DNA of 37,108 bases from positions 1 through 37,108 of IMG/VR virus record IMGVR_UViG_3300046010_006313; one strand, 5' to 3'. The DNA comes from a virus. Positions 13,843 to 37,108 of this stretch are shown piece by piece (the stretch's first letter is position 1; each line of letters begins with the position of its first letter). The notes under the pieces are model-generated. The model was not told where the DNA came from and made no database searches. It saw only the letters and a list, made by a program, of their open reading frames with translations. Made by a program: the position numbers and the translations under genes.

Positions 13843-15084
13843 TTATATTCCAAGCACAGTTTTAATTTTATAGTTACTGTATTTGTTATTGAAATGTAAC
13901 ATCAACTCTTTTATTTGAGTTGTGCCAGAATTGTATAATTCTTTTATTTTATTGAGGTCAGAGATAGGAATTGCGTCTGACCTCAATAAACCTTTAACCC
14001 AATGCGATTGAGGAATATCTCCAGACAGAACCCTGTAATTTTTAACGCCATCGTTCCAAGAAGAATACCCATTAATAGAACTGGTGTATTTCTTTAACCC
14101 ACAACTTTTATTTGTTTGTGTAGATAATAACTCGCCTTCTTCCCATCCTTCTCCAGGATGTTTTTTCCTTTTTATTGTTTTTGTTCCATCATTATAACAT
14201 TTTGTTCCAGTATTACATATAGAACCTAATTTTAATGATATTTTAGCTTGTTTTTTATGGTTTTCTGTTATATAAAATATTAAACCTAATTTTTCAATTT
14301 CAGGTGAATTTTTTGATAGTTTACCGTAATATGTGCCATCAGGCAAAGCATAATTAGCCTTTTCCTTCAATTTATTTCTTCTTTTATTATTAGCGCTTTG
14401 TTTACAATATTTTTTGTCTTCTTCTGAACAATATGTATTCCATCCTTGAGATAAATATTCTGATAGTTCTTCAGAATATAATTTGATTCTAATTTTAATA
14501 TCTAGAAAATATAACGTGATTTTTTTAAATTTATCTTTAGATTTTGACGATTTAGCCTTAGATTCATTTGACCTTTTGTAACCAGACGCCGCGCCTATTA
14601 ACGATAATTCCTTTATTTTTGTGTCGTCTTTATGTAGGAAATATCTGTTACCAAATTCGTCTTTGTATGTCGCAAACCCTTTTCTATTTTGTAACCTTTC
14701 TTTTTTAACTTTCTCTAAATATAAAATTTGATATTTTGTTGGCACCTTTCTCTCAGAAAGAGAATGTAAATTTGTTTCTGCATTATAGATATCAAGCATA
14801 CATTCTAATGCGAATATTTGAGAACCCTTAAACGTTTTCCATAACATCACGTGAGCCATTAAATGTTGTCTAAACGTTAACCTGATAGAATTCCAACTAT
14901 ATACTTTAAGGTTAGTGTATTCTGGGAATAAATCCTTAGCCTTTGGGCAAATATGATGTATTTCAGTATATTCTAGGTCTGGTAAACTTTTATTTGATTC
15001 ACTACAATAATCAATAAATTTAATGTATCTTTTAAGGTAATGAGAATTGTGTGGTTTAGTTTTTAAAACACTATAAATATTCAT
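13843..15084 (-). CDS. HNH-type homing endonuclease, free-standing
   Basis: The protein of 413 residues has an N-terminal HNH-like core: EIHHICPKAKDLFPEYTNLK (H43, H44) followed by RLTFRQHLMAHVMLWK (H74, H78), as in phage mobile endonucleases. The rest is Lys-rich with repeated small modules ending in patterns such as NDGTKTI/NDGVKNY and GEGWEEGEL, likely DNA-contact repeats. It cuts a specific DNA site to spread its own gene; the likely target is uvsY or gp23 DNA in related phages lacking it. It is more A/T-rich than neighbours. SD AAGGAG lies before the ATG. No intron or intein boundary is evident. Confidence 0.85.
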   Translation of the reverse strand: MNIYSVLKTKPHNSHYLKRYIKFIDYCSESNKSLPDLEYTEIHHICPKAKDLFPEYTNLKVYSWNSIRLTFRQHLMAHVMLWKTFKGSQIFALECMLDIYNAETNLHSLSERKVPTKYQILYLEKVKKERLQNRKGFATYKDEFGNRYFLHKDDTKIKELSLIGAASGYKRSNESKAKSSKSKDKFKKITLYFLDIKIRIKLYSEELSEYLSQGWNTYCSEEDKKYCKQSANNKRRNKLKEKANYALPDGTYYGKLSKNSPEIEKLGLIFYITENHKKQAKISLKLGSICNTGTKCYNDGTKTIKRKKHPGEGWEEGELLSTQTNKSCGLKKYTSSINGYSSWNDGVKNYRVLSGDIPQSHWVKGLLRSDAIPISDLNKIKELYNSGTTQIKELMLHFNNKYSNYKIKTVLGI

Positions 15085-26685: not shown

Positions 26686-26991
26686 CTATAAATGTTTTCT
26701 TACAGTCACCTGTATAATATCTTTACATGTAACGGTTTTTGAATCAGCGCCTGTGATTATAACGTCAAATGACATTGATGGAGGTTCTAGTTCACCAACA
26801 CCAAAGTTGTATTGCACTATACCTGCGATTTCATCAAGAATAATCATGTCCTTTAATTTTGTGACTTTAGCCTTAGTCACCCATCTAATTTTTACAGTTG
26901 AATCTGTTAAGTCTATTGGAGCAGAAGAAACCGTATCAAGACATTTGACTTGTATAGCAGACCCTGTATCCCCTTCAACGAAATTGTACAT
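26686..26991 (-). CDS. Virion protein resembling the BppU N-terminal domain
   Basis: A 101-residue beta-sandwich-like protein: FVEGDTGSAIQVKCLDTVS, APIDLTDSTVKIRWVT, EIAGIVQYNFGVGELEPPS, FDVIITGADSKTVTCKDIIQ. This pattern is seen in small baseplate or fibre-attachment proteins (BppU N-terminal type). Its ATG overlaps the stop of the 1,141-residue gene (TAATG), so it likely works with that protein, maybe as its adaptor. Confidence 0.65.
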   Translation of the reverse strand: MYNFVEGDTGSAIQVKCLDTVSSAPIDLTDSTVKIRWVTKAKVTKLKDMIILDEIAGIVQYNFGVGELEPPSMSFDVIITGADSKTVTCKDIIQVTVRKHL

Positions 26992-29900
26992 TATTTTAAT
27001 CCTTTAACGTTTAAGTTGTTTGTGAATTCTGAAATTTTAGATTCTTGTATAGTAGCAGAATCTGTAGATTTGATAACATTTGTAAATCTATTTTTAGCGT
27101 TAATCACATTATTTGTTGTTATTTTATTTTTATTGATATTTGTAAATTTAGATTTATAATGTAGGGTTTTAGTAAAAATAGATGCAGTATAATCAAATTT
27201 TGTAAATTCAGTTTTATCTGGTACAACATATAAAAACGTTGAATTGATATTGTCTATATATACAAATTCACAATTAGGATACACAAAATTTGTAAAGCTT
27301 ATGTCAACATAATTTGTTAATACGAATGTGGTTGATGTATAATATACAGATAATTCAGATTTGAACCTTTCAAAATTATCCAGTTCTGCTGTGGCGTAAT
27401 TACTTCTTAATGTTAATGAAGTATTACCCGAAAGATTTGCCAAATTTGTGCTAATTCCAACACCGGATATATTTCCATTGTATCCGATGGATACCCCTGA
27501 TATCCTAGAAATTATTGTGTCAGAATTTAAAGAAAACCTTAACGATGCAGAAATAGGATTTAAGTATGATATTGTACCAAAAGAATCTATTTTTGTAGTA
27601 ACGCCGCCCGCTAACTGTTCTATTTCAGTAATTGAACTGTGCCCACTTAAATTAATTGTGGAGTCAGATTTAACAATTAATGAATTTAAAGTTGTTTGTG
27701 GTTCAAACGAAGAAATAATAGTTGATACACCATTATTTATTTCTCCAATAAATACGGTTGTATCAGGTAATTTTTGTATAGAAGTTACATTTGAATATTG
27801 TAAATTTCCATTTGCACTATCAATTTTTACCCCACGTGCTATTATATTACAGCTTGTTGTGATATTACCAATTGAACATGTAGCAGCAAATCCAAGTAAA
27901 GTTCTAATGTTACCAAATGGGATAGTCCCAACATTACCAAGAATCTGATTATATCTAATTTGTGTTAACGATTGAGATTGCCCTGTAGCAGATAAAGGTG
28001 TTAATATCTTTATTACATTTGGAGTTAAATTTTGTACATATGAATTGCAACTATTTCCTGTTATTGCTACTCTTACATTATTATTAAGCGTGGATACTGC
28101 TGTTGTTGCAGTCGTTCCTAACGTGCTAATAGATGTCGCAAGATTTGTATTACCTACAGCCGGCACGCCTGTTACAGATGAAAGTTTTACTGAATATTCA
28201 AATGGTTCAGTTCCAATATAAGTACCAGCGGTGTTTCCTGTTATATAAACATATTTTGATGTGCCTACATTTCCAGAAATACCCGTAAAATTAACGCCCG
28301 TTACACTTACAACTGGACCATTTATAAAATCTAATTGTGTGGCTACACTAGACGAAGATAAAAGACCATTTAATTGTACTGCTTTGTTGACAGATAATGA
28401 ACCAGCATAAGTAGCGGCGGTTTCTTTTTGTAAATTTGCCGATATTAATGTTGTTAATTGCGCAGATACACCGGTAGCATATATTTGGGATAATCCCAAA
28501 TTAGTTGCTGTTCTTAAATTAGATACTGTAGATACAGCACTATTTCCAGTAAGGCTTAAAATTATATTTTCTTGTAGAGTTCCAATTGAACCTGATGCTA
28601 TTTGGGATTGTACATTTGCATCTACTTTTGGATTAACATTACCATATGCACTTACAAGGTTTACACTTGATTGTTTAATTTCTACATTAGTGTTTACTGA
28701 ATTTATAGAAATTGCTGAACTGATACCAGATAATTGTAATATGTGATTATTTGGTTCTGTTCCAACTGCTGTTGAACCAGTGTTACCGATTAAGCCGTTT
28801 TCGGTTGAATAAGATAATGAACCAATATTAACACTAGCAGTATTATTTGTTGTGCTTTGTTGTGATACAGGATAAAGTGTACCAACGGAAACATTAGATA
28901 TTATTCCGTTTAACGGTATAGTGCTAAACGGTGACTCTGTATTTACTATAGATGTAGCAACAACTGACATCAAATTATTTGTTGACGCGATAGAAACAAT
29001 ATTTCCAGAATACCCTAAACTTGAAATATTAGTTACCGCAGACGCAATAGTTACAGATTGATTTCCTACATTTGAGTTTGAATACGCGCCTAGTAATAAA
29101 TTTGTTCTTGATTGTGATACATTCCCAACTACACCAGTCAATCCACCAGAAGTTAATATTGCTGTTTTATTTGTTGATAAATTACCAACAGAAAAATTAG
29201 AAACGTTTCCGGTTAAATTTACAGTAACATTATACAGGGTGTTTCCTGCAACTGCGTTTACATCAACACCAGATAATTGTAATATGTGATTATTTGGTTC
29301 TGTTCCAACTGCTGTTGAACCAGTGTTACCTGTAATATTAGTAAGCGTAGACTTAGAAAAAACGCTGTTTACTACATTTATAGATTGGTTGCCAGATAAG
29401 GTTATGCTGACTAATTTTGATACAGAACCAATATCTGTATTTGCAAATACATTGGTTAACCCAATTGATACATTAGACGTAATAGAATTGGCGTAACTTT
29501 GTGCTGTTGCTTGAGATAATAAATTACTATGGCTTGATGCTACCTGTCCTATATTCATCGCACTAGATGATGAATAGTTCAAATAATAATCGTTTGTTAT
29601 CCAATCTGCCAGATAATAGGTGATATTATTTGACAAAGTGACCGACATAGCCGGCGTATTATTACCAACATATGATGTTCCTGATACACCAGAAACTACA
29701 ATTACATTACTGACTGATCCAGTTACATAAGTTCCTGTAAGTCCTATTGTTATATTTTTTTGTGCATTACCAGCTGTAATGAAACACGTGTTTCCAGTTA
29801 GCGCTTTTGTTACGTTAGCATCAACTGTACTTATTGAACTTGACCCAATATTACCGGTTAGCGCCTTTGTTACACTCGCTAAATTTGTTCCTACAGCAGA

Positions 29901-30416
29901 TGTTGCAGCATTTCCAATATTTGGGGTTGCGATTCCAATAGCTGCAATGTAATTCAATGAAGACAAACTTGAATTACCGGTTAGCGCTTTTGTTATAACT
30001 GACTGTGGAGTACCAGCTAATGCAGACGCAGCTGTGCTAGAAATTGTTAACGTATGGATATTGGGTTCTGTTCCTACTGCGCATGTCGCAGTATTTCCAG
30101 ACAAAGATATTGATATTGATGTTGACGCTACATTGCCAAATGATGTTGATGTTTGATTACCGCTTAACCTAACAGAATATGTTACATTATTGGTTGCAGA
30201 TGCACAACTGTTTCCAGTTAGCGCTTTTGTTATGTTTACAACTGATGGATAATTAACTGAACTTGTTGAAGAATTTCCAGTTAATGCTTTTGATATTGTT
30301 GGGGATATTGATGAAATAGCACCGGTGCCGAGTGACAATCCGCCACGCTCGACATAAGTGCTATCCACGTAAGTGCTATCAACATAAGACGAATCATTTG
30401 ATATAATAGTAGCCAT
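26991..30416 (-). CDS. Very large repetitive virion protein
   Basis: A 1,141-residue protein built mostly of ~20-25-residue beta-strand repeats with core (K)ALTGN, S-x-x-S-x-x-N and LSGN-x-x-x-x-x-VGT-E-P. Cys, Trp and charged residues are rare; Ser, Thr, Asn, Val and Gly dominate. The N-terminus has a tandem VDSTY. The last ~170 residues differ, with many Phe, Tyr and Lys and ending EFTNNLNVKGLK. Such LTGN/VGT repeats occur in phage structural proteins and suggest a long beta-solenoid fibre or surface protein (inference). It lies between tail and fibre genes. Start ATG at 30414-30416, with SD AAAGGAT. Confidence 0.75.
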   Translation of the reverse strand: MATIISNDSSYVDSTYVDSTYVERGGLSLGTGAISSISPTISKALTGNSSTSSVNYPSVVNITKALTGNSCASATNNVTYSVRLSGNQTSTSFGNVASTSISISLSGNTATCAVGTEPNIHTLTISSTAASALAGTPQSVITKALTGNSSLSSLNYIAAIGIATPNIGNAATSAVGTNLASVTKALTGNIGSSSISTVDANVTKALTGNTCFITAGNAQKNITIGLTGTYVTGSVSNVIVVSGVSGTSYVGNNTPAMSVTLSNNITYYLADWITNDYYLNYSSSSAMNIGQVASSHSNLLSQATAQSYANSITSNVSIGLTNVFANTDIGSVSKLVSITLSGNQSINVVNSVFSKSTLTNITGNTGSTAVGTEPNNHILQLSGVDVNAVAGNTLYNVTVNLTGNVSNFSVGNLSTNKTAILTSGGLTGVVGNVSQSRTNLLLGAYSNSNVGNQSVTIASAVTNISSLGYSGNIVSIASTNNLMSVVATSIVNTESPFSTIPLNGIISNVSVGTLYPVSQQSTTNNTASVNIGSLSYSTENGLIGNTGSTAVGTEPNNHILQLSGISSAISINSVNTNVEIKQSSVNLVSAYGNVNPKVDANVQSQIASGSIGTLQENIILSLTGNSAVSTVSNLRTATNLGLSQIYATGVSAQLTTLISANLQKETAATYAGSLSVNKAVQLNGLLSSSSVATQLDFINGPVVSVTGVNFTGISGNVGTSKYVYITGNTAGTYIGTEPFEYSVKLSSVTGVPAVGNTNLATSISTLGTTATTAVSTLNNNVRVAITGNSCNSYVQNLTPNVIKILTPLSATGQSQSLTQIRYNQILGNVGTIPFGNIRTLLGFAATCSIGNITTSCNIIARGVKIDSANGNLQYSNVTSIQKLPDTTVFIGEINNGVSTIISSFEPQTTLNSLIVKSDSTINLSGHSSITEIEQLAGGVTTKIDSFGTISYLNPISASLRFSLNSDTIISRISGVSIGYNGNISGVGISTNLANLSGNTSLTLRSNYATAELDNFERFKSELSVYYTSTTFVLTNYVDISFTNFVYPNCEFVYIDNINSTFLYVVPDKTEFTKFDYTASIFTKTLHYKSKFTNINKNKITTNNVINAKNRFTNVIKSTDSATIQESKISEFTNNLNVKGLK
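28725..28787. repeat. 63-bp direct repeat inside the repetitive gene, copy 1
   Basis: This block is identical to 29268-29330. It codes for the repeated NTGSTAVGTEPNNHILQLSG. Exact DNA identity while other repeats differ suggests recent duplication or gene conversion. Confidence 0.9.
29268..29330. repeat. 63-bp direct repeat inside the repetitive gene, copy 2
   Basis: Identical to 28725-28787, 543 bp away, in the same frame. Confidence 0.9.
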
Positions 30417-32762: not shown

Positions 32763-33188
32763 TTAATTGTTTCTTGATGTGTTTAATTTTTGTAAAATTA
32801 AATTTATTTCTTCTTCTACCGTCATACCAAATTCAATCACAACATCAGCATTTTTAGGCTTAACAAAAATTGCGTTTGTATCGCTATAAACACATTCAGA
32901 TATTCTGTTGACCCAAATAATAAAGTCAGGATTAAATATGGTTCTTGTTTCTTCAGTCGGGCAAATAAAATCTGCTATTGAATCATACCCCGCCCTAGAA
33001 ACTACATCACATAAAAATCCCATTCTTTTGGATTGTTCGAGTCTATCCTGATTAGAAAATCCCAAATCCTTATTGATATTTTCTCTTATTTCATCTGCGT
33101 TAAAATGTACTGCTGAAAGCTTAGTCGCAAGTCGTTTAGCAAGAGTGGTTTTACCCGCGCCGGCTAACCCCATAACAAGAATTTTCAT
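32763..33188 (-). CDS. cysC: Adenylylsulfate (APS) kinase-like P-loop kinase
   Basis: The 141-residue protein starts MKILVMGLAGAGKTTLAKRL with a P-loop (K13), then HFNADEIRENINKDLGFSNQDRLEQSKRMG, the APS-kinase pattern of NADEIR...N.DLGFS...R.E...R. DSIADFICPTEETR corresponds to the segment before the lid. It is shorter than CysC (about 200) but like the phage forms. It would phosphorylate APS to PAPS, the sulfate donor used by the sulfotransferase encoded nearby. A related small-molecule kinase cannot be excluded. Confidence 0.82.
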   Translation of the reverse strand: MKILVMGLAGAGKTTLAKRLATKLSAVHFNADEIRENINKDLGFSNQDRLEQSKRMGFLCDVVSRAGYDSIADFICPTEETRTIFNPDFIIWVNRISECVYSDTNAIFVKPKNADVVIEFGMTVEEEINLILQKLNTSRNN

Positions 33189-33568
33189 TATAATATATCT
33201 AAGTCTTCATGAGTAATTGCAGCTTCAATAGCGGCTAATTTTGTATCATATGCAAGTTTAGCGGCTTCAAAAGATTTAACATTTTTAACTTCGTCTAAAT
33301 CTTTAATTGCTTGTTTGTATTCAAAATCAGCGCTCATTTTTAAAGAACCTTTGCGTTCATCAATTGAAAATTCATAAGTATCCCAAACAATTTCAACTGG
33401 AGTTTTTGTTATATCAAAATGATGTCCAGTGAATCCTGTTCTTTTAGAGTTAACTTCTGGTCTAATTTCAACTGCTTCATGCCAAAATTCTAACTCATTA
33501 GCCGGCGGCGCTGAGTCCCAAACTTGTGTAACTTTTTCATCTTCAATTTTTACATATAATTGAGCCAT
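33188..33568 (-). CDS. Fibre-region phage protein of unknown function
   Basis: The 126-residue protein begins MAQLYVKIEDEKVTQVWDSA, has an EIVWDTYEF segment and a C-terminal helical part with AKLAYDTKLAAIEAAIT. The helical end resembles the DUF4376-type tail-fibre-associated proteins, though the match is weak. Its stop overlaps the APS kinase start (TAATG). Its place between PAPS-making and PAPS-using genes may only reflect a fibre operon. Confidence 0.55.
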   Translation of the reverse strand: MAQLYVKIEDEKVTQVWDSAPPANELEFWHEAVEIRPEVNSKRTGFTGHHFDITKTPVEIVWDTYEFSIDERKGSLKMSADFEYKQAIKDLDEVKNVKSFEAAKLAYDTKLAAIEAAITHEDLDIL

Positions 33569-33594
33569 ATTAATTCCTTGTGTTAAGTGTTAAA

Positions 33595-35352
33595 CTATTT
33601 AATAAATTTTTCATTTAAACGGTCACGAATTTGTTCGAATGGTGCAGACCATTCTCCATATTCTGTTTGTCTAAATAAAGTAAATGAATCATAGTAGGGA
33701 GTTTTTTCACCATCAATAGCATATAAGAAATATGGCATTATTGGCGTAACAACCCAAGTTTCAATTCCCATAGCACCGGCTAAATGTGAAACTGACGTGC
33801 ATGAAGATATGACTAAATCACAACTAGCAATAGCCGCTTGTGTATCAAACCATGAATCGAGAGGAACATCTTTAACCCAATCAGGTGTAACATCTATATC
33901 AGCATCACGTTGTAAAGAAATAAATTCAACATCTAAATCTTTAACCGCGTTAAACATTAGTTCGCTTGGAAACAATTTATGGTGTTGATCTTCAAATGCT
34001 TTATTGCCAGACCACCGTAAACCAATTCTAAATTTTTTAGATTTAATTGCTTTCGGTTTATCTATATAAGGTAAACCGCTTATGCTTTCTAATTCAAATC
34101 CTAATGGTACAACAGCCGACATACCAGCTACCCAATAATCGTGGTAAACTCCATATTCAGCGCCATGTTGAACTACAGCTGAAACACCTTCAACGTTATT
34201 TAATAGAGGGACTAGAGAACCAGTAGCAGAAACCGCGACTTTGTTGCCTAGTTTAGCGATATCTTTGGCGTATCGGATTTGATGAATCTGGTCACCTAAA
34301 CCGCCTTCCAAGTAAAGTAAGATTGTTCCTTTGGTAATTCCATCCCATGGTTGAGTAATGGTTTCAGGATGTTTGTTTCCGAAAACGCCTACTAGACGAC
34401 CTTTATCCATTAAGCGATAGCCTTTTTGGATTTGTCCTTGTCTAAGATAATACCAACCAGAGTTATAGGCTGCTCTGTAGTTATTGGGTTCTTCTTTTTC
34501 GAGTTTCTGAGCAATACGCCAGCCTTCTTCGAAATCGCCAGTTGTAGCAGCAGCAAGTTGTAAATCTAAATCATGAATGGTTGGAATAGTTCTTGGTGTT
34601 GGTAACCAGAATTCAGGTTGGCAGAAAGAACTATAATGATGTTGAAGAATATCTTTTGGATCAGTTGTATGTTGACGTTCAAGTTTAGGCTTAATGTCAT
34701 GCATACCAGCGTATCCATGTAGATTTTCATCATCTTCTTTTACAGGAGTTCCATCGATGTTTGATAAATCGTAATCAAAATCTGGTAGCTCTAAGAATTC
34801 ATGGATTCTATTTAATTGAGCTTGAGGATCCGCGAGTAAATCATCATATTCAACGATTAAGAAACATTCTGGAGCAAACTGATATCCTTCTTGTAGAGAG
34901 ATATAAGCCGCTCTAAGATGGTCAGCTAATTGACCAGTTGCCATGAATTCATCAAGGTTTTCTGGTTTAGCCACTCTAACAAAAGACGACATACAGTCTG
35001 GGATAGATCTGACTGTAGCAATGATTTTAGGTTTATGTTGAAGAACCTGCGACATTGCCTGCATAATGGTCGGAATTGGCCAACCTCTGCCTTTATCAAT
35101 GATGATTGGTTTAGGGATTTCCTCATAATAGGAGTCGATAAGACCTCTCATTGATTGGGCTAGTTTAGTTCTATCAGGATCGTTCTCATTAAGTAAACCA
35201 GCAGAATGCCACGTATTGGCTAGACCGTCTAATGCATGTACTAGACCAGATGTGGTAGAAACATGAGTTGCTGGATTTTGGTTAAGAATAGCAGCAAGAA
35301 CCGTGGAGCCACTGCGAGGAATACCAGATAAGAAGTGAAGAGTTTTGTTCAT
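33595..35352 (-). CDS. Sulfotransferase-TPR-glycosyltransferase fusion
   Basis: A 585-residue multidomain protein. Residues 1-260 form a sulfotransferase: 5'-phosphosulfate loop SGIPRSGST (9-17), 3'-phosphate contact RSIPDCMSSFVR (115-126), and VEYDDLLADP. Residues ~264-330 look like TPR helices (GDFEEGWRIAQKLEKEEPNN, NSGWYYLRQGQIQKGYRLMD). Residues ~340-585 resemble GT9/TPR-linked glycosyltransferases: LYLEGGLGDQIHQIRYAK, IGLRWSGNKAFEDQHH, ASCDLVISSCTSVSHLAGA. It could add sugar and sulfate to a glycan or protein, perhaps on fibres or the host envelope (inference). APS kinase nearby would supply PAPS. A late-type motif and terminator stand directly upstream. Confidence 0.88.
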   Translation of the reverse strand: MNKTLHFLSGIPRSGSTVLAAILNQNPATHVSTTSGLVHALDGLANTWHSAGLLNENDPDRTKLAQSMRGLIDSYYEEIPKPIIIDKGRGWPIPTIMQAMSQVLQHKPKIIATVRSIPDCMSSFVRVAKPENLDEFMATGQLADHLRAAYISLQEGYQFAPECFLIVEYDDLLADPQAQLNRIHEFLELPDFDYDLSNIDGTPVKEDDENLHGYAGMHDIKPKLERQHTTDPKDILQHHYSSFCQPEFWLPTPRTIPTIHDLDLQLAAATTGDFEEGWRIAQKLEKEEPNNYRAAYNSGWYYLRQGQIQKGYRLMDKGRLVGVFGNKHPETITQPWDGITKGTILLYLEGGLGDQIHQIRYAKDIAKLGNKVAVSATGSLVPLLNNVEGVSAVVQHGAEYGVYHDYWVAGMSAVVPLGFELESISGLPYIDKPKAIKSKKFRIGLRWSGNKAFEDQHHKLFPSELMFNAVKDLDVEFISLQRDADIDVTPDWVKDVPLDSWFDTQAAIASCDLVISSCTSVSHLAGAMGIETWVVTPIMPYFLYAIDGEKTPYYDSFTLFRQTEYGEWSAPFEQIRDRLNEKFIK

Positions 35353-35380: not shown

Positions 35381-35390
35381 TATTATTTAG
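35381..35390 (-). promoter_or_regulatory. Putative late promoter for the sulfotransferase unit
   Basis: CTAAATAATA on the minus strand, 28 nt before the ATG, the same 10 bases and the same distance as before gene 22. Confidence 0.5.
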
Positions 35391-35395
35391 GGCAT

Positions 35396-35430
35396 TAAAA
35401 AACCACCACTGCGGTTAAACAGTGATGGTT
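35396..35430 (-). terminator. Rho-independent terminator after the NUMOD gene
   Basis: AACCATCACTG and CAGTGGTGGTT form an 11-bp stem (one wobble), loop TTTAACCG, then a T-run. It separates the fibre-endonuclease unit from the sulfotransferase unit. Confidence 0.9.
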
Positions 35431-35459: not shown

Positions 35460-35969
35460 TTATAAATATGACCACCCTTTTCTATGCTCTCGACACCAAT
35501 ATTGTATGGTTTCGGCTGGTATATTCAACGCTTTAGATGCACAATGTGTAGAACCAAAAGTACCATGCGGTCCAACTACCGTTTTTGCTCTGTAGTTATT
35601 ACTACCGCCGATAGCTACTGACATTTTTGCCTTGACTTCAGGTCTATGCATAACATTCTTATCGCCAACAGCGTAATCGTGCGATTTACCTTTAGTCGAT
35701 TCGGATATTTTTGTTCTAGTTTCCGGCGACATCATCTTATCTTTATTACCTTCACTAATATTATTAGAGTTAGTATCGATATAAACATTATCTACCGAAT
35801 ATGGACCAATATCCCCGAATCTACACATACAATAATTATCTTTACCGCGACCACGCTGCTCGTATTTACCAGAATCTTCCCAAATTTTACACCATTCTTC
35901 GAATGACAGTAAAAACTCAACGCCGCGTCGGGTAGCATTAGATTTTTGAGTGGTATATTTACGTTTCAT
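35460..35969 (-). CDS. Homing endonuclease-like protein with NUMOD repeats
   Basis: The 169-residue protein begins MKRKYTTQKSNATRRGVEFL, has YCMCRFGDIGPYSVDNVYID, typical of small phage endonuclease-like proteins, then two NUMOD3-type helices (SPETRTKISESTKG, RPEVKAKMSVAIGG) and a NUMOD1-like DNA-binding end (GTFGSTHCASKALNIPAETIQYW, GWSYL). NUMOD modules give sequence specificity to homing enzymes. A clear HNH or GIY-YIG core is not seen, so activity is uncertain. It follows a fibre gene by 7 bp, with its SD region overlapping that stop. Confidence 0.75.
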   Translation of the reverse strand: MKRKYTTQKSNATRRGVEFLLSFEEWCKIWEDSGKYEQRGRGKDNYCMCRFGDIGPYSVDNVYIDTNSNNISEGNKDKMMSPETRTKISESTKGKSHDYAVGDKNVMHRPEVKAKMSVAIGGSNNYRAKTVVGPHGTFGSTHCASKALNIPAETIQYWCREHRKGWSYL

Positions 35970-35976
35970 ATCAACC

Positions 35977-37108
35977 TCAAGATATAGCCAAGAATATGTA
36001 ACTTACACCAGAAGCATTTACACTTGTAGCAGCAACTTGATTAACCACAAAGCCATTAGTATCATAATCAATCGTATCATCAGTTGTTACTTCAGCAGCT
36101 GCAGTGTTAAGGCTTAAATGCGGTTCATTAGCAGCATTAATACCACGAGCAGTGTCCCAAATAAACCAATCGCCAGTAGCACTTGTACATTTTACCATGA
36201 CGAACCTCGCACCTGACGTAAATCCACAGTTAATAGCCTGAGTTCCACCATTACCTGTGTAGGAGCCTACTTTGCTGATTCCAGCAAGTGTGGCAAATAG
36301 GTAGGCGACGTAGGTATATCCACTAAAATTAGTAGATTCATCATTTTGTACACCAAACGTAGTAGAAGAAATAGAAGTAAATCTTGAACCATAATCGCTA
36401 AAACTTCCTGTAAGATTAAGATATAACCCGCTAGAAAGCGTATTTGGATATACAGCCCAGTTACGTACTGAATTTCTTGCTTTAACTATTATTAGTTCTG
36501 GAGAAACTGTTAAATTGTGATTGTATGTTTGTCCTAAAACCCCATTACCAGTATAACAAACCTCATCAAAGAATCCGGGGGCGCGTTTGAAGAAATACGC
36601 ATTTCCATTATAAGCAACAGTGCTTGGCATGACTGATACTAAAAAATTATCATAACATCCAAATACATACGTTGTTGCCGATGAGGGAATTGTAGTCGCA
36701 GTCACAGATTGTTCTGCTGCTGTACTTGCTGTACTTAAATATTTAGTTGAACCACCAGCAAAGCCTACACCTTGTAATTTACTTGCAATTCTAAAATCAA
36801 AGCTGCCGTTTCGCGGATTAGACAAAACAACATCAGAAAATTCTATACCGGGATTAGACCCACTTGTGTTTGTACCAACTTCAGGACTAAACACCTGCGT
36901 CCCCGTTGTAGGCGGCTTGTTTGGGCGACGGATTGCCATGTAGATGTAAGTTTGACCATTACCAGGTGACGCATCATTTGCAAATCCTGTTGCTGTAGGG
37001 TACCAATTACCCCCTGCGGAAACTTCCGCATTAGCCGTGTTTGCTCCAAGAAGTGCATCTAACCCACTTACATCCATCCCCCGCATAGTGTCAATAAGCC
37101 ACCAATTT
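35977..37108 (-). CDS. Tail fibre or adhesin-like protein (DUF7483 type), 5' end outside window
   Basis: The frame is open to the right edge, so the first residues are missing; at least 377 residues are visible. The segment NWWLIDTMRGM at the edge aligns with WFIWDTARGI further on, showing it extends beyond. Two SYTGNG/CYTGNG modules (YTGNGVLGQTYNHNLTVSPEL, YTGNGGTQAINCGFTSGARF) repeat a domain common in phage surface proteins (DUF7483, from memory). It ends YIFLAIS. A receptor-binding or fibre role is likely. Confidence 0.8.
   Translation of the reverse strand, partial: NWWLIDTMRGMDVSGLDALLGANTANAEVSAGGNWYPTATGFANDASPGNGQTYIYMAIRRPNKPPTTGTQVFSPEVGTNTSGSNPGIEFSDVVLSNPRNGSFDFRIASKLQGVGFAGGSTKYLSTASTAAEQSVTATTIPSSATTYVFGCYDNFLVSVMPSTVAYNGNAYFFKRAPGFFDEVCYTGNGVLGQTYNHNLTVSPELIIVKARNSVRNWAVYPNTLSSGLYLNLTGSFSDYGSRFTSISSTTFGVQNDESTNFSGYTYVAYLFATLAGISKVGSYTGNGGTQAINCGFTSGARFVMVKCTSATGDWFIWDTARGINAANEPHLSLNTAAAEVTTDDTIDYDTNGFVVNQVAATSVNASGVSYIFLAIS

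Follow-up and report, generated by a model that had tools for sequence, protein, structure and literature searches.

A putative sulfation and glycosylation cassette in a T4-like phage, pairing an APS-kinase-fold protein with a sulfotransferase fusion

What does a gene resembling adenosine 5'-phosphosulfate (APS) kinases do in a phage genome, and why does it lie behind a sulfotransferase gene? The question is raised by IMG/VR virus record IMGVR_UViG_3300046010_006313, of which positions 1 to 37,108 were analysed as a single stretch of 37,108 nucleotides, hereafter the window. The window genome is T4-like, with genes for the major head protein, portal, tail sheath, clamp loader, and RNA ligase. 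Three genes on its minus strand, at 32763-35352, make up the cassette considered here, and the same span had been put forward in an earlier, sequence-only reading as a possible sulfation module. They encode a fusion of a sulfotransferase, tetratricopeptide repeat (TPR) helices and a glycosyltransferase (GT)-like domain, a small protein that we call MID, and a short kinase:

33595..35352, minus strand: fusion gene, 585 aa, sulfotransferase with TPR and GT-B glycosyltransferase-like parts
33188..33568, minus strand: MID, 126 aa, no known family
32763..33188, minus strand: short APS-kinase-fold protein, 141 aa, PF01583 at 3.5e-15

The proposal of a sulfation module was borne out insofar as an APS-kinase fold is repeatedly coupled to sulfotransferases of the type that uses 3'-phosphoadenosine 5'-phosphosulfate (PAPS), and a cellular counterpart stands beside CysD and CysN. 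We regard sulfation as the probable chemistry of the cassette. With more reserve, we favour a cassette that supplies PAPS and acts by sulfation and glycosylation on a phage adhesin, not on the host.

Linkage of fusion, MID and kinase

At least 172 fusion relatives were found in IMG/VR, and the best 80 (68-94% identity) were kept, with MID and the kinase scored by hidden Markov model (HMM). MID was present in 71 of these loci and the kinase in 60; all 60 kinases lie downstream on the same strand. When at least 2 kb of downstream sequence was available, MID was found in every locus (67/67) and the kinase in 59 of the 67; with at least 4 kb the counts were 48/48 and 45/48, in constant order and strand. 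In the nearest relative (fusion 94% identical) a kinase likewise follows the fusion, at a distance of about 1 kb. MID is a near-obligate partner. No convincing Pfam or PHROG match was obtained for 26 members of the MID family, and the idea that MID is a known fibre chaperone found no support there.

A second lineage carries a stand-alone sulfotransferase, and there the kinase lies directly downstream on the same strand in 80/80 loci, the best 80 of 172, which were chosen by the sulfotransferase alone and are near copies (identity to the query 89-100%). Between the two lineages, the sulfotransferase, the small neighbour and the fibre type are different (RCC1 repeats versus fn3 and Lcl_C). A more divergent stand-alone query returned two loci, L273 with a kinase by HMM and L274 without one by HMM, the latter ending 207 bases after the match. 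The rows counted here are related sequences and hence no independent trials. Nevertheless, a chance pairing confined to this genome, which the sequence-only reading had left as the alternative, is excluded by the survey (48/48 for MID, 45/48 for the kinase, 80/80 for the stand-alone form). A portal-based set of T4-like relatives (17 loci, mostly fragments) was not used for co-occurrence.

The linkage was also approached from the kinase side. The kinase set holds 129 open reading frames (ORFs), or 86 distinct kinases when identical sequences are counted once, and the scan set excludes kinases first seen in fusion loci, which lowers rather than raises the linkage. Among 48 distinct kinases sampled in this way, a sulfotransferase lies within 7 kb in 21 cases, in 15 of them encoded by the gene just upstream, and 14 of the remainder have less than 6 kb of upstream sequence. 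On a kinase tree with few columns and many unresolved forks, in which the label for fusion context also covers loci with MID alone or a fusion fragment, context changes at least 11 times, suggesting that the pairing of kinase and sulfotransferase has been re-made. Sulfotransfer_2 was found in none of 27 kinase records without a nearby sulfotransferase, a search in which the control was equally silent. In L089, L111, and L112 the gene that precedes the kinase looked sulfotransferase-like by eye, but Pfam returned nothing for the L089 copy; a candidate in L126 (PF03567 at E 0.024, PF00685 at E 0.039) fell under both cut-offs and was not counted.

Cellular relatives are scarce: across 84,980 species genomes scanned, only 6 loci matched, and one of the six (L163) is clearly a phage contig, with terminase- and capsid-like ORFs by eye. 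On L166, a contig of a metagenome-assembled genome of 0.8 Mb, genes for CysD, CysN, a short APS kinase of 143 aa and a sulfotransferase follow in succession. CysD and CysN, which form the enzyme that activates sulfate, score over their NCBIfam cut-offs (TIGR02039 and TIGR02034), and their adjacency places the short kinase of this contig in sulfate activation. The same contig has GT41 and GT2 genes, an RCC1 protein gene and a separate TPR-GT gene (42% identical to the fusion), the last beside RCC1 and dockerin-type surface proteins (L166 3990-11041). In L193, from a relative of the L166 genome, an RCC1 protein gene is followed by a TPR-GT and sulfotransferase fusion in reverse order, and the sulfotransferase occurs in 8/148 genomes related to that of L166, itself included. 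Separate genes in one cell, together with two opposite fusions, argue that the sulfotransferase and the TPR-GT protein work together. We also note that in Eilatimonas milleporae (L167 9596-20507) a stand-alone sulfotransferase, 41% identical to the phage form, adjoins an ORF of 3164 aa that looks like a giant adhesin.

Domains and residues of the fusion and the kinase

The fusion divides into three parts, given by residue and by position in the window:

34579..35352, minus strand: sulfotransferase domain, residues 1-258, with a PRSGST loop at R13-T17, D86-K87, R115, and S123
34381..34581, minus strand: TPR-like helices, residues 258-324, matching the AspH TPR domain at Z 11.2 over 67-68 aligned residues
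33598..34329, minus strand: GT9/heptosyltransferase-like GT-B domain, residues 342-585, by fold match only

All three are seen in the structure model, which agrees with the composition first proposed for this protein. The model was made with AlphaFold on 26 relatives (pLDDT 82), and its pTM of 0.55 leaves the orientation of the domains uncertain. Profile searches divide the parts differently: Sulfotransfer_3 matches residues 7-192 at 7.8e-17 (62.7 bits against a cut-off of 27) and phrog_27463 matches at 9.4e-49, TPR is barely seen in Pfam (TPR_17, E 0.04), and the C-terminal part has no Pfam match, PF01075 included.

The closest folds to the sulfotransferase domain are the tyrosylprotein sulfotransferases (TPSTs; human TPST1 in 5wrj, Z 18.3, 238 residues aligned, root-mean-square deviation (rmsd) 3.5). 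The GT-B model (residues 342-583) matches WaaC (2h1f, Z 15.8, 227 aligned, rmsd 3.1), then RfaF, TibC (4rb4, Z 14.9) and the GT9 structure 3tov (Z 14.7). Foldseek matches of the whole fusion model include SPINDLY and an O-GlcNAc transferase, both of which we take to combine TPR with GT-B. Residues S16, T17, K87, R115, and S123 of the PAPS site are invariant across 26 sequences, and R13-G15 are almost invariant, with one row cut short at that place; these presumably form the 5'-phosphosulfate-binding loop and the 3'-phosphate-binding arginine and serine. In nearly all fusion loci the sulfotransferase part is more conserved than the GT part.

The kinase matches PF01583 over its cut-off, but only at profile positions 5-90 of 152, and a PDB search with its family profile picks out APS kinases at 1.5e-13. 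The fold was modelled for a relative, L153, which carries an extra domain and has no Sulfotransfer_3 in its record. APS kinases were the best matches to that model (Z 19.6, rmsd 1.6-1.9 over 138-140 residues), ahead of gluconate kinase (16.7) and shikimate kinase (13.8). Residues G12, K13, T14, D32, R35, F44, and R49 are invariant in 27 sequences; we assume that the first three belong to the Walker A motif and the others to the APS site.

Long forms of the kinase also exist: 21 of the 86 distinct kinases end in a small nucleotidyltransferase (L004 12115-12951; L153 7995-8759; L272 4992-5732; motifs GRxQPxHxGH, GRDVGY and ISAT.IR). By sequence this extra domain resembles NMN adenylyltransferases (5e-10) and not ATP sulfurylase. 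In a comparison with PAPS synthetase, where an ATP sulfurylase domain is joined to APS kinase, residues 1-254 of L153 can be aligned to 1x6v, but with an rmsd of 17. The cultured Stenotrophomonas phage Bhz60 is among those with a long kinase, which adjoins a NADAR gene. The long kinases may serve either PAPS or NAD-type chemistry. Among 46 kinases in fusion context, 30 are short and 16 long; as both forms take up one and the same place after the fusion, they may well have a common task in that setting.

Several observations weigh against a PAPS-supplying cassette of this kind. The kinase is without the middle of the APS-kinase lid, and the shortening explains why the curated apsK cut-off was missed (TIGR00455, 56.4 bits against 138.7, profile positions 21-106 of 184); the asparagine that we take to contact APS is Gln52. 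In the fusion, what we presume to be the TPST catalytic glutamate (Glu99 in TPST2 numbering) falls at Thr34 by sequence spacing, and the aspartate that we assume to lie near the C-terminus of GT9 enzymes falls at Cys518. Moreover, 13 of the 48 sampled kinases have at least 6 kb of upstream sequence and no sulfotransferase within 7 kb, and PF13469 was found in 0/13 of their records, searched whole. Bhz60 likewise shows no sulfotransferase in 10.4 kb, and cyanophage sulfotransferases occur without such a kinase nearby. In the window, tblastn found neither RCC1 nor ADP-heptose genes. The sequence-only reading would have fallen had catalytic residues been absent; those of the nucleotide-binding sites are present, but the lid is shortened and the TPST glutamate appears not to be conserved. 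Invariant PAPS-site residues next to altered catalytic positions suggest that PAPS binding is intact, while the acceptor chemistry is still putative.

Genomic setting of the cassette

Upstream of the cassette, the window holds the following features:

35977..37086, minus strand: tail-fibre-like gene (DUF7483 at 1.8e-37; phrog_24898, tail fibre), its frame open to the window end
35460..35969, minus strand: NUMOD3 homing-endonuclease-like gene, immediately before the cassette
35401..35416, minus strand: terminator-like hairpin with a T-run, upstream of the fusion, at the end of the preceding unit
35384..35390, minus strand: late-promoter-like motif CTAAATA, 38 nt ahead of the fusion start

The tail-fibre-like gene encodes a candidate substrate of the cassette. 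The kinase had been placed two genes from the fusion; a gene with the APS-kinase fold is indeed there, but one gene, MID, lies between them. The stop of MID and the start of the kinase share one base, and the two are therefore likely co-translated. It had further been held that a late promoter and a terminator make the cassette one unit. The motif CTAAATA, which we take to be late-promoter-like, does precede the fusion, and of its 11 copies on the minus strand 5 have a gene start no more than 150 nt downstream, but the total of 11 is not above simulation (mean 7.6). The exact T4 word TATAAATA is missing on the minus strand before the fusion and is not enriched across the window. The terminator claim gained no support, as the hairpin (35416-35401) sits upstream of the fusion and a search past the kinase gave none. 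The kinase gene is followed after 12 bases by two small ORFs that contain hydrophobic stretches; given this spacing and the missing hairpin, the transcription unit probably runs on.

In phage relatives the cassette sits among RCC1-repeat or Lcl_C fibre-like genes. The order is RCC1, fusion, RCC1 (0 to 2 copies), MID, optionally GT25, GT32 or a methyltransferase, and kinase; beyond it may follow HldE nucleotidyltransferase, cupin, HldE kinase, and HldD, then lysis genes (labelled by eye) and other late genes. ADP-heptose genes occur in about ten loci (HldD 2.8e-64), and the HldE halves and HldD, accompanied by a cupin, are encoded past the kinase (L014 9584-10732; L024 7880-8641; L076), which fits a heptosyltransferase-like GT domain. 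In the window, tblastn found none of these extra genes of the relatives; sugar and APS would be supplied by the host.

GIY-YIG-like genes (family f23, labelled by eye) lie inside the cassette in several relatives. Homing genes at or in the cassette may help it to move. A second homing-endonuclease-like gene of the window (13843-15084) adjoins the major head protein gene. The window also encodes a late protein of 1141 aa (26991-30416), rich in Thr, Ser, and Asn in 'LTGN..'-like repeats and without a PHROG match, which is possibly a heavily modified fibre. Among cultured phages, a DNA-level search with the window gave three short matches only. In INPHARED, tblastn with the fusion gave half-matches in 9 records, none covering 80%; MID had no match there and kinase matches were weak.

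Function, rival explanations and known systems

We propose that the kinase would phosphorylate host-made APS at the 3' position to yield PAPS, from which the N-terminal domain of the fusion would transfer sulfate to an acceptor. The rest of the fusion, TPR and GT-B, may dock a protein and add a sugar, which would be heptose where relatives carry ADP-heptose genes. Sulfate would probably be placed on a phage tail or adhesin protein encoded nearby, either at one of its residues or on a sugar that it carries, and MID is perhaps an adaptor or fibre chaperone. The observations comprise the genes, their linkage and synteny, the folds and the conservation of nucleotide-binding residues, whereas APS as the kinase substrate, the identity of the sugar, the acceptor, and the purpose are all points that we infer. 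An adhesin target is favoured by the late position among fibre genes, by a pairing re-made with different fibre types, by the TPR-GT architecture and by the RCC1 partners in cells.

The earlier suggestion of sulfated sugars on the phage's own fibres or on host glycans is plausible, and its second half leads to the main competitor, in which the same PAPS-dependent chemistry acts late on the host surface (lipopolysaccharide (LPS) or capsule), for example against re-adsorption or superinfection. The GT domain is as similar to WaaC and RfaF of LPS synthesis as to the protein heptosyltransferase TibC, and neighbours in relatives include GT25 of the LPS type, GT32, and methyltransferases. However, relatives keep the cassette among fibre-like genes and before lysis genes, TPR with a TPST-like fold suggests protein acceptors, and cellular relatives stand beside RCC1 proteins; we consider a host-surface target unlikely, though not negligibly so. 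It is rather unlikely, too, that the kinase acts on another small molecule while the fusion uses host PAPS, as two steps of one glycan pathway. The immediate pairing with two sulfotransferase lineages, the APS kinases at the top of the structural matches (L153) and the short APS kinase after CysD-CysN in L166 speak against such a kinase, whereas the shortened lid, Gln52, the kinases without sulfotransferases, the long forms (21/86) with an NMN-adenylyltransferase-like domain, and the Bhz60 copy beside NADAR are what it would explain.

We hold two further explanations to be improbable, the second even more so than the first. Phage cysC is read in the excerpted text of PMC10914622 as auxiliary metabolism, in which the phage kinase would boost host assimilatory sulfate reduction; here the partner genes are sulfotransferases and glycan enzymes, and the ATP sulfurylase family PF01747 was found in 0/15 records (control positive in 5/14; that search did not extend to heterodimeric CysDN or to cysH). 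A cassette for sulfating or glycosylating phage DNA bases would find precedent in systems that an excerpt of PMC10829341, citing Iyer 2013, states as reported in phages, but in the loci mapped none of the genes next to the cassette was recognised as DNA-modifying, and the TPR-GT and RCC1 partners are of a cell-surface style.

If the adhesin-sulfating cassette is real, phages produce PAPS themselves and use it to add sulfate to a surface structure, and phage sulfate genes, at present mostly put down to sulfur-nutrient metabolism, would gain a role. We know of no described case of a phage sulfating a surface structure with its own PAPS, and the kinase-sulfotransferase pair as a sulfation pathway was not found in the open-access PMC literature. 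The linkage ties phage cysC and phage sulfotransferase to one testable pathway with named parts. We raise only tentatively, as something rather doubtful, the wider idea that many phage cysC-like genes do not serve sulfur assimilation but are PAPS suppliers of mobile cassettes that put a sulfated sugar, in some cases heptose, on phage adhesins, the long form being a miniature PAPS synthetase with sulfate itself as its starting material.

Compared with known systems, the kinase is like APS kinases (CysC; the PAPSS kinase domain) in its P-loop GLAGAGKT, D32, R35, F44, R49, and P77, and in the L153 fold; unlike them, it has 141 aa, a family-specific DTN..F..P stretch in place of the lid middle, and Gln52 for the presumed Asn. 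The N-terminal domain of the fusion shares with TPST1/2 the fold, the PAPS loop, K87, R115, and S123, but it is 13% identical, appears not to conserve the catalytic glutamate, is fused to TPR-GT and has a putative acceptor. The GT-B fold resembles WaaC/RfaF and TibC (Z 14.7-15.8), and some relatives have ADP-heptose genes; it differs in an identity of 12-14%, in Cys518 near the presumed Asp, and in the fusion to TPR and sulfotransferase.

The phage cysC auxiliary genes of PMC10914622 are, like this one, phage-encoded, APS-kinase-like and from fresh water; as far as the excerpts of that paper go they are read as sulfur assimilation, whereas the kinase here is physically linked with sulfotransferases and glycan enzymes. 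OM43 phages (PMC10580990, in excerpt) and cyanophage S-SKS1 (about 30% identity) have Sulfotransfer_3 genes of the same Pfam family, but around the S-SKS1 and AG-345 copies neither a kinase nor MID nor a GT fusion was seen. The excerpted OM43-phage paper states that the function of the phage sulfotransferase 'remains unclear' (PMC10580990), and sulfotransferases are listed as auxiliary genes in passages of PMC13079714, PMC12285232, PMC8290583, and PMC10829341. The parts are thus known singly, as phage cysC and as phage sulfotransferase, while their combination and its reading as one cassette are new.

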